Below are positions 7,823 to 57,404 of a stretch of 64,000 nt of DNA, in pieces (the first letter of the stretch is position 1; every line of letters starts with the position of its first letter). The notes below the pieces were generated by a model. It ran no database searches and was not told the origin of the DNA. It was given only the letters and a program-made list of their open reading frames with translations. This DNA is from Acinetobacter colistiniresistens (GTDB taxonomy: Bacteria > Pseudomonadota > Gammaproteobacteria > Pseudomonadales > Moraxellaceae). Location of the stretch: positions 3,596,001 through 3,660,000 of the forward strand of contig NZ_CP102099.1 in assembly GCF_024582815.1 (NCBI RefSeq), given 5' to 3'. The translations under genes and the position numbers were made by a program.

Positions 7823-8182
7823 TGGTGGAGATGGCGGGAGTTGAACCCGCGTCCGCCAGCACTACACTCGAGAATACTACATGCTTAGATATCGTCTATT
7901 GTTTTAACACTAAGTGACCCGACGAACAGGGTACAAAGTGCGATCCTCTAGATTTGGTATAGTGTCCCGAGGCTCAACACTATACGGACTTGTGTGCGTG
8001 CGCTTCAGTCGGGTTCACTGACCACAAGTATTCAGTGAAGCGGACAAGCTGCCCTTAGGCAGCTAGAGCGTATGATTCGTCGTTTGCGACTATTAAAATG
8101 CAAATTTTATTTACGAGAGGAAATGCGCTCTCGGCATGCATCTATGAGTTTCATCACCAGCGTCGAAGCCAATAACATCCCC
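7823..8182 (-). ncRNA. ssrA: Transfer-messenger RNA (tmRNA)
   Basis: About 360 bases on the minus strand. The 5' end reads GGGGATGTTATTGGCTTCGA and the 3' end CCCGCCATCTCCACCA with an encoded CCA, which together form the alanine-tRNA-like domain. The T-arm GGGTTCAACTCCC is clear. The tag frame is at 8055-8087 on the minus strand: GCA as the resume codon and then ANDESYALAA followed by TAA. tmRNA rescues stalled ribosomes and marks the incomplete proteins for proteolysis. It is a one-piece type, as usual in gammaproteobacteria. Confidence 0.97.
8055..8087 (-). other. tmRNA tag reading frame (ANDESYALAA)
   Basis: Starts with the GCA resume codon after AATAGTC and ends in TAA, coding for ANDESYALAA. 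The final ALAA is the protease-recognition end. Confidence 0.92.
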
Positions 8183-55065: not shown

Positions 55066-55090
55066 AAAAAAATGGGCAGTTTTACTGCCC
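55066..55090 (-). terminator. Intrinsic terminator of the first PF10118-type gene
   Basis: On the minus strand GGGCAGT / ACTGCCC around AAA is followed by TTTTTTTA, eight bases past the gene's stop. Confidence 0.82.
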
Positions 55091-55097
55091 TATATCC

Positions 55098-55982
55098 TTA
55101 ACTTAGATTAAAACCTAATTCAGCGCGCCATTTATTCAAAAGCGCGGTAGTATCGTCATCATTCGGATGAAATTTCGGTCTTAAAAAATCTAATAAGGTC
55201 GGAATTTGACGGGTCATAAAACCTTTATAGCCATACATAAATTTAATCATGTATTTGCTATCACGCCATGTCAGCTTGCCATCTGTTTGCAGCAGTTTGG
55301 CCGTGAAATAAGATTGAGTAACAAAAATGAGCCCCATTGCGATGACTAAAGCTAATGAACGCATAAAATACGCTTTAACACCTTGACCATACATGGCTTG
55401 ATAGACATCAAAAGCAACCGCTTTATGCTCATTTTCTTCTACCGCATGCCACATCCATAAATGATACATGGTTTGATCCATAAACATGGCTTGGATATCG
55501 GGATTACTTAATAACTCTTCAGCAATGGTAGAAGTAAAGTGTTCCAACGCACAGGTTCCCGTTAAACCAATCATTTCTTTACTAAAACCAAAAGGTTTTA
55601 AAATTTTTGAAGCAATACCAATGGTTCTATTAATTAACCGGCCAGTTTGTTCTTCCATTTCACGTACTTTATAACCATACGCTTCAGCCGAAGCGTTAAA
55701 GGCCAAATGCTCTTTAGAGTGCATTGCTTCTTGACCAATAAAGGCACTGATTTCTTTCTGAAGTCGCTCATCTACAAGTTTGGGATCATTTCGCACCGCA
55801 CGGGTGCTATTCACAAAGAACTGCTCACCTTCTGGGAATAACGCTGAAAGTGCAGTCATAAAATGTGTTAATGCTGCATCGCCATTAGCCCAATAACGTG
55901 GTACTTCACCAAATTCAAAATCCATGCGACGTACAGGAAAACTGGCGCCAGCTCGGTTTGAAATATTGACTTTCGCATTCAT
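55098..55982 (-). CDS. Ferritin-like di-iron protein, PF10118 type (copy A)
   Basis: A 294-residue protein of the family annotated as metal-dependent hydrolase. It has a helical bundle with a typical di-iron ligand pattern: FIGQEAMHSKEH (E-x-x-H, about residues 85-96), ALEHFTSTIAEELL (about 146-159), and HAVEENEHKAVAFDVYQ (E-x-x-H, about 180-196). A hydrophobic helix at about 211-231 (SLALVIAMGLIFVTQSYF) suggests membrane contact. Copy B lies 224 bp upstream and the two are near-identical in motifs. Each has its own operator and terminator. The reaction is unknown; oxidation or hydrolysis of fatty substrates are possible. Confidence 0.78.
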   Translation of the reverse strand: MNAKVNISNRAGASFPVRRMDFEFGEVPRYWANGDAALTHFMTALSALFPEGEQFFVNSTRAVRNDPKLVDERLQKEISAFIGQEAMHSKEHLAFNASAEAYGYKVREMEEQTGRLINRTIGIASKILKPFGFSKEMIGLTGTCALEHFTSTIAEELLSNPDIQAMFMDQTMYHLWMWHAVEENEHKAVAFDVYQAMYGQGVKAYFMRSLALVIAMGLIFVTQSYFTAKLLQTDGKLTWRDSKYMIKFMYGYKGFMTRQIPTLLDFLRPKFHPNDDDTTALLNKWRAELGFNLS

Positions 55983-56068
55983 ACCTTGTTCTCCTACGCG
56001 ATAAATATTTTTTGCCTGATTGTTTTTATACTTTATTTATACGCTCTTTTCAGTGCATGAAATAAGTG

Positions 56069-56101
56069 CAGATAAGGTCAGAAAAACATCATATGAGGAC
56101 A
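56069..56101. promoter_or_regulatory. Direct-repeat operator upstream of copy A
   Basis: CAGATAAGGTCA (56069-56080) and CATATGAGGACA (56090-56101) are 21 bases apart, start to start, and the arrangement matches the one upstream of copy B, with flanking ATAAGTGCAG shared as well. The spacing of two helical turns is typical of AraC-type activators. Regulator unknown. Confidence 0.5.
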
Positions 56102-56144
56102 TCTGAATCTGCTGAAAATCTTGTATGAAATGAACAATTAAAAT

Positions 56145-56169
56145 GAAAAAAGGACAACATTGATTGTCC
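56145..56169 (-). terminator. Intrinsic terminator of the second PF10118-type gene
   Basis: On the minus strand GGACAA / TTGTCC around a 6-base loop is followed by TTTTTTCATTTT. It separates copy B from the operator of copy A. Confidence 0.78.
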
Positions 56170-56205
56170 CCTTTTCAGTAATTACAGAGCTAAACCAAAG
56201 AGATT

Positions 56206-57087
56206 TTACAGACCTAATTTTGCCTTCCAATCTTGTAATAGTTGTACGGTATCTAAATCATTGGGATGGAAACCAGGTTTGAAGTACGCCAGCATTTCAC
56301 CCGCCATTCCAGCGATAATTCCTTTCGATGGACTATAGGCATATTGATAAATCATACCCAATTCTTTCAGGTTCAATTTTCCATCATCTCTCAATAGTTT
56401 TATAACGAATGAAGATTGGGTCAGAAAAATCGCAACCATCGAAACAACCAGTGCAGTATTACGTAATGCGTATGCTTTTACGCCACGACCAAAAATTTCC
56501 TCATACACATCATAGGCAACTGCTTTATGTTCATTTTCTTCTACCGCATGCCATAACCACATATATTCCATGGTCTTGTCTTGCATCAATGCTTGAATAT
56601 GCGGATTACGTAGCAACTCCGAAGCAATCGTTGCAGTAAAATGCTCCAGTGCCGTTGTTGCGGTCAAATCTACCATTTCTTGTGTCATACCAAATGGCTT
56701 TACTAATTTAGCAAATAGTTTACGACCCGTTTGAATGACGACACCTGTTCTTCGTTCCAAGGTTTCAACGTCATGTCCATATTTTTGAGCGGAAGCATTA
56801 AAGTTGACATGTTCTTGGGTATGCATGGCTTCTTGACCAATAAAAGCACTGATTTCTTTTTGCAGTTTATCGTTATCTTTAATGGCTGGGTGGTAACGTA
56901 CAGCACGAACCGAATCGATGAAGAGTTTTTCACCGTCTGGGAATAATGCAGATAAACCTGTCATAAAATGCGTTAGACCAGCAGAGCCACTGACCCAATA
57001 TTCTGGAACCTGATCAAAATCAAAATTCATACGACGTACTGGGAAACTTGCACCTGCACGATTCGAAACATTTACTTTAGCATTCAT
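56206..57087 (-). CDS. Ferritin-like di-iron protein, PF10118 type (copy B)
   Basis: A 293-residue paralogue of copy A, alike from end to end. FIGQEAMHTQEHVNF (about residues 87-101), ALEHFTATIASELL (about 148-161) and HAVEENEHKAVAYDVYEEIFGRGVKAYALR (about 182-211) carry the likely di-iron ligands, and a hydrophobic helix near 212-232 is present. N termini are nearly identical (MNAKVNVSNRAGASFPVRRM). The ATG has AGGAG ten bases upstream. The gene has a 21-bp-spaced direct repeat upstream. Function unknown, as for copy A. Confidence 0.78.
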   Translation of the reverse strand: MNAKVNVSNRAGASFPVRRMNFDFDQVPEYWVSGSAGLTHFMTGLSALFPDGEKLFIDSVRAVRYHPAIKDNDKLQKEISAFIGQEAMHTQEHVNFNASAQKYGHDVETLERRTGVVIQTGRKLFAKLVKPFGMTQEMVDLTATTALEHFTATIASELLRNPHIQALMQDKTMEYMWLWHAVEENEHKAVAYDVYEEIFGRGVKAYALRNTALVVSMVAIFLTQSSFVIKLLRDDGKLNLKELGMIYQYAYSPSKGIIAGMAGEMLAYFKPGFHPNDLDTVQLLQDWKAKLGL

Positions 57088-57181
57088 GCTACCTACTCCT
57101 TTTCAGTGAAATATCTTCACTGAGCACTTTTGTTCGTTTTCTTGAGTTTTATATTACGTTTTTATACGAATCAATTAAGTG

Positions 57182-57214
57182 CAGTTTAGGACAGCGTATT
57201 ATCAGTTTAGGACA
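57182..57214. promoter_or_regulatory. Direct-repeat operator upstream of copy B
   Basis: CAGTTTAGGACA occurs twice, exactly repeated, at 57182-57193 and 57203-57214, 21 bases start to start. Together with the flanking AAGTGCAG it aligns with the operator of copy A. It lies about 95 bases upstream of copy B's start codon. AraC-type binding is inferred from spacing and repeat form. Confidence 0.55.
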
Positions 57215-57247: not shown

Positions 57248-57361
57248 TCGACGCAAGAGAAAAGGAGTGATAAGTGAAACTACTTTTCTAACCTAAAAGA
57301 AAAATTTAATTGAAGACTAGAGTTTCGATAGTAAGACAAGAAATACAAAAACAATAGGCAT

Positions 57362-57390
57362 AAAAAAACACCCCAAAGGGGTGTTTTTTT
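57362..57390 (-). terminator. Intrinsic terminator of tuf
   Basis: CACCCC / GGGGTG around AAA with A7 and T7 flanks lies 14 bases past the tuf stop on the minus strand. Confidence 0.9.
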
Positions 57391-57404
57391 ATCACTCTAA
57401 GCGA

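Follow-up and report, generated by a model that had tools for sequence, protein, structure and literature searches.

The 64,000-nucleotide stretch of Acinetobacter colistiniresistens DNA analysed here (NCBI RefSeq assembly GCF_024582815.1, contig NZ_CP102099.1, positions 3,596,001 to 3,660,000; hereafter the window) carries two paralogous genes of the Pfam family PF10118, called copy A and copy B, each preceded by an operator made of two direct repeats spaced 21 bp apart. The operator is real and genus-wide, it serves a small regulon that includes a DUF6670 gene elsewhere in the genome, and a plausible regulator can be named. The explanation that best accommodates the data as a whole, to which we give a probability of about 0.6, is that a common activator of the AraC/XylS type, probably the product of a gene called L105, switches on copy A, copy B and the DUF6670 gene, and that the PF10118 products resemble the oxygenases CmlI and AurF. 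The operator gives access to the function of PF10118, an unstudied enzyme family that databases label "hydrolase", in that three target genes, one regulator candidate and a laboratory species with the system (A. baylyi) offer a route to the inducing compound and, from there, to the substrate of these di-metal proteins. The features of the gene pair, in window coordinates, are:

57176..57214, minus strand: operator of copy B, TGTCCTAAACTG-N9-TGTCCTAAACTGCACTTA, direct repeats at 21-bp spacing (sequence, pattern search, orthologue conservation)
57151..57156, minus strand: –10-like element TAATAT of copy B, 19 bases past the operator CTTA (sequence)
56206..57087, minus strand: copy B, PF10118 protein of 293 amino acids (open reading frame list, Pfam, AlphaFold2 model with pLDDT 92.4)
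56144..56177, minus strand: terminator-like hairpin 3' of copy B (hairpin search)
56063..56101, minus strand: operator of copy A, TGTCCTCATATG-N9-TGACCTTATCTGCACTTA, 21 bases start to start (sequence, pattern search)
56036..56041, minus strand: –10-like element TATAAA of copy A, 21 bases past the operator CTTA (sequence)
55098..55982, minus strand: copy A, PF10118 protein of 294 amino acids (open reading frame list, Pfam)
55074..55090, minus strand: terminator-like hairpin 3' of copy A (hairpin search)

Architecture of the Operator and Promoter

Read on the minus strand, both operators share the form TGTCCTNAACTG-N9-TGWCCTNANCTGCACTTA, and on the plus strand the repeat of copy B reads CAGTTTAGGACA twice and that of copy A CAGATAAGGTCA and CATATGAGGACA; sequences and spacing are exactly those claimed in a preliminary description of this DNA, which had reported 21-base direct repeats before both genes. 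In the consensus of copy B the trinucleotide CTG recurs in steps of 10–11 bp, and the steps alternate (TGTCC, CTGATA, TGTCC, CTGCAC), so that the true repeat is 21 bp long and its half-site has two parts, in keeping with the two helix-turn-helix motifs of one AraC subunit. Downstream, the first TA[ATG]NAT begins exactly 19 bases past CTTA at 74 of 76 copy-B sites, and at the copy-A loci, inspected by eye, the –10-like element lies 21 bases past CTTA in 24 cases and 19 bases in the other 9; at genes other than copy B the distance is 18–21 bases. This near-fixed distance has the geometry of a class II activator site at a predicted promoter. In AraC/XylS class II sites, such as those of XylS at Pm and of AraC at I1-I2, direct repeats of about 21 bp are followed by a –10 element, and the downstream repeat replaces or overlaps the –35 element. 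Like them, the present sites consist of direct repeats at a spacing of about 21 bp, with the downstream repeat in the –35 place and a –10-like element after it; they differ in the half-site (TGTCCTNAACTG), in that the gene of the candidate regulator is unlinked and has no such site, and in that the site rises above background only in Acinetobacter among the genomes searched (see below).

Conservation and Specificity in Acinetobacter

Conservation was followed at the best 80 of 84 Acinetobacter copy-B loci from one scan, a canonical site being one with at least 16 of 20 specified positions at most 220 bases from the gene start. The nearest copy B from a named species is that of A. colistiniresistens, at 98%. 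Such a 21-bp site lies upstream of copy B at 76 of the 80 loci; at three loci (L029, L087 and L090) the spacing of the repeats is, as judged by eye, 20 bp; A. haemolyticus CIP 64.3 (L049) has a site with 18 of 20 positions about 1.3 kb before copy B, beyond an insertion. This insertion, of about 1.2 kb and with transposase-like frames (region L049:4686-6001), has naturally parted the switch from its gene. Of the 80 loci, 33 also contain copy A, each time with the site (19 or 20 of 20 positions). Over 74 distinct sequences scoring at least 15, among which L029 is possibly out of register, the operator holds 1.44 bits per base vs 0.44 for the 30 bases before it and 0.62 for the 18 that follow, with 1.68 in the upstream 12-bp half-site and 1.47 in the downstream one.

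With at most one mismatch allowed, the pattern gave 46 matches in 31 of 41 Acinetobacter genomes, one of which (G040:C5) looks like chance, vs none for the reversed pattern. Outside the genus, 387 genomes of the order gave 3 matches, with 14 for the reversed pattern over all 390 genomes, and these sites were rejected as background; as far as sampled, the site is a feature of Acinetobacter. The order-wide search included two other Acinetobacter genomes, neither of which matched, and since one of them (G369) has copy B some genuine sites probably escape the strict pattern. A looser pattern (two mismatches, no CTTA) is near background in this genome, with 11 matches vs 8 for the control, and its only mismatch-free matches are the two window sites. 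The conservation, the 46 matches against none in the control and the fall to background outside the genus confirm that the repeats are more than chance.

A Third Site Before a DUF6670 Gene

The genome scan advised in the preliminary description gave one further site, and hence a small gene set:

G000:C1:2087818-2087856, minus strand: third site, before a PF20375 (DUF6670) gene, 61 bases before the ATG (pattern search)

Other genome sites and conservation upstream of orthologues, on which that description had made its regulon depend, are thus both found, the one at the DUF6670 gene and the other genus-wide. With up to three mismatches in 26 genomes, a close DUF6670 orthologue with the site occurs in the present genome (G000) and in six others, G006, G010, G017, G021, G024 and G027; some PF20375 match, close or distant, exists in 36 of 41 genomes. 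At eight DUF6670 sites the hexamer 18 bases past CTTA is CATAAT (4), CATAAC (2), CATACC or CTTAAC. A decayed DUF6670 gene with the operator still in front was also seen (L226, G003:C6:1064464-1064790).

The same three-mismatch search gave 58 matches vs 18 for the reversed pattern; 40 of the 58 were assigned to copy A, copy B or DUF6670 by sequence type and position, and the other 18 were taken as background. No fourth member of the regulon was accepted among the four of these 18 that were read: L227, L228 and L229 fall within long reading frames, and at L231 no frame of more than 100 codons starts within 300 bases.

The Candidate Regulator

The genome contains 31 matches to HTH_18 (AraC-type), none of them inside the window. 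Of the earlier proposal that an AraC regulator acts in trans, the AraC-type spacing and the lack of an AraC gene within the window stand; the regulator itself is a putative AraC-type protein, and if it is one it would act in trans. The suggestion that an AraC gene with the same site might be found did not hold: at 30 of the 31 loci, taken with about 1.5 kb of flanks, the best scores were 13–16 of 20, the top score of 16 falls inside the coding frame of L112, and no autoregulated gene was accepted. The 30 genes were then set against 58 AraC loci from four genomes that have copy B and four that lack it, each locus being assigned to its best match; 4 of the 58 matched no AraC gene of this genome and one weak match was left out. 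L105, L107, L111, L121 and L126 are matched in all four genomes with copy B; in those without it, L121 is matched in four of four, L111 and L126 in two each, and L105 and L107 in none. L103 also had a best match in every genome with copy B and in none without, but in G029 the identity was only 31% over 121 residues, and it was dropped as not orthologous. The DNA-binding part of L105 is 90–95% identical to its counterparts, as expected for a near-invariant operator, and that of L107 36–42%. By elimination and co-occurrence, L105 appears to be the best-fitting candidate:

G000:C1:2413319-2414341, minus strand: L105, AraC-type candidate regulator, 341 amino acids (best-match comparison)

Among 149 genomes, L105 occurs in 125 (E ≤ 1e-80) and copy B in 121 (E ≤ 1e-100, a cut-off that admits some copies at about 60% identity): both genes are present in 121, copy B alone in none, neither in 24 and L105 alone in 4 (G030 and G499, 65 and 64% complete, G527 and G532). 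A fusA tree was built for 30 genomes of our choosing, 16 of the 24 with neither gene and 14 with L105. On the best tree L105 changes 8 times, at least 4 changes being required by supported branches for the group with neither gene; supported branches also give 4 independent pairs, 3 in agreement and 1 neutral (p 0.25).

The neighbours of L105 are a MaoC-like dehydratase frame on one side and a gcvH-like frame on the other (both named by sight), and its sensor is an Arabinose_bd domain (PF12625). This sensor type is common to QhpR and CypR, the best NCBIfam matches of L105, but the scores of 169 and 146 bits are below the curated cut-offs of 250 and 500, and L105 was assigned to neither. Of the described AraC systems found for the genus, the one that comes nearest is APR1-almA of Acinetobacter venetianus, in which an alkane-responsive AraC/XylS-type regulator likewise acts at a promoter distant from the gene that encodes it (PMC11784139). 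The gene differs from L105: APR1 corresponds here to L111, which is found also in genomes without the site, and the targets are different. The main text of that report contains neither TGTCC nor the terms footprint, direct repeat or binding site (PMC11784139). APR1 was rejected as the regulator, its orthologue being present in two of the four genomes without copy B.

The PF10118 Proteins

Both products lie far above the curated Pfam cut-off for PF10118 (Metal_hydrol) of 33.2 bits (261 for copy A, 250 for copy B) and are 57% identical, which bears out their earlier naming as PF10118 paralogues. The confident AlphaFold2 model of copy B is a helical bundle. Residues E53, E86xxH89, E148 and E184xxH187 are invariant in 60 sequences and nine paralogues, and H180, E184 and H187 (HxxxExxH, on the last bundle helix) in the 60 sequences, the seventh ligand being thus conserved. 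The ferritin-like di-iron ligands proposed earlier are therefore recovered as two invariant sets of E and ExxH in a modelled bundle, that is, as di-metal ligands for which the metal itself is a prediction.

The closest solved folds are the di-iron N-oxygenases CmlI and AurF, at 10–14% identity; the best fold matches are di-metal carboxylate proteins, though none has a Foldseek E below 0.001. The ligand order of PF10118 (E, ExxH, E, HxxxExxH) is the same as in AurF, seventh ligand included. By sequence, copy B does not belong to the AurF/CmlI N-oxygenase family: a PDB sequence search gave no relative (a single match at E 0.28 was taken as chance), and a Pfam scan at E ≤ 10 gave PF10118 and families below their cut-offs, with no AurF-type family. 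The PF10118 products are best predicted to be CmlI/AurF-like di-metal oxygenases or oxidases, possibly with di-iron chemistry, and the label "hydrolase" is probably a misnomer because of this fold and the invariant ligand residues. The family is large, with at least 7136 relatives in a search that scored 7999 candidates.

The literature searched, mostly without subscription papers, contained no report of the operator or regulon and no mention of COG3687, and the PF10118 accession appears in a single paper. The A. baumannii tags A1S_0276-0278, guessed for this locus, were wrong, being tRNA genes; a literature search with A1S_0870-0872 and two ABUW tags gave nothing related.

Proposed Mechanism and Alternatives

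The terminator-like hairpins behind each gene agree with the earlier statement that each has its own terminator and support the view that copies A and B form separate transcription units. One activator would switch on both units, two subunits of an AraC/XylS-type protein binding the two 12-bp direct repeats; since 21 bp correspond to two helical turns, the subunits would sit on the same side of the helix. The –35 element would be replaced by the downstream repeat and its CACTTA tail, and there the activator would contact RNA polymerase as in class II activation, with the distant DUF6670 gene under the same control. The activator is most likely L105, whose Arabinose_bd sensor probably binds a hydrophobic molecule, and the probable substrate of the PF10118 products is a lipid or another hydrophobic compound, which would also be the inducer. 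We advance only tentatively, at less than even odds, the broader idea that L105 is a genus-specific sensor of an endogenous or host-derived lipid or hydrophobic signal and controls an oxidative module (the PF10118 paralogues and DUF6670) of an undescribed pathway, lost whole repeatedly in Acinetobacter species. One observation weighs against a direct link to L105. With copy B as query, no PF10118 match is found in G001, G015, G020, G026, G032, G035 and G296, and 2 to 7 (copy B included) in the Acinetobacter genomes bearing copy B, so that L105 may belong to a wider pathway. G004, with the strongest DUF6670 profile match, has no site there at up to three mismatches, so that membership of DUF6670 in the regulon is not universal.

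The operator and regulon could also be real and the regulator be another AraC-type protein, either a genus-wide one (L111, L121 or L126) or L107, which evolves fast and lies next to a further PF10118 gene. All four have best matches in every genome with copy B that was compared, and L111 carries 12 of 14 named residues of APR1, the long-chain alkane-responsive activator of A. venetianus (PMC11784139); yet L121 persists in all four genomes without copy B and L111 and L126 in half of them, although G001, G020, G026 and G035 have no site at up to three mismatches and G015 has only two 3-mismatch matches of the background kind, and the weakly conserved DNA-binding part of L107 is unfit for a near-invariant operator. 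We hold this to be rather unlikely. It is less likely still that an OmpR/PhoB-type response regulator or another non-AraC activator binds the repeats. PhoB-type boxes are also direct repeats in place of the –35 element, and the 10–11 bp periodicity of CTG would suit such a protein, but the alternating steps make the true repeat 21 bp with a two-part half-site; no search for non-AraC regulator families was made. That the stretch is just a strong constitutive promoter, or part of a tuf-like unit, with no specific regulator, seems very improbable: the –10 is conserved and a tuf-like gene (named by sight) adjoins copy B, the two PF10118 genes following it on the minus strand, but a terminator-like hairpin (57360-57392) separates the tuf-like gene from the copy-B operator, the same site recurs at copy A and at the unlinked DUF6670 gene, and conservation is as high in the upstream half-site, which lies well away from any –35, as in the downstream one.

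Other PF10118 Genes and Surroundings

Next to a DUF2804 gene, a further PF10118 paralogue (L015; L232:3600-5614) and an AraC-type gene of its own, L107, are arranged divergently; a similar pair lies near a trpA-like gene (L290), but the regulator is fast-evolving. Two more tandem paralogues (L017 and L020) are divergent from a gene that is TetR-like by sight, so that PF10118 genes stand repeatedly beside regulators. The window also contains a transfer-messenger RNA (tmRNA) gene at 7823-8182, on the minus strand.
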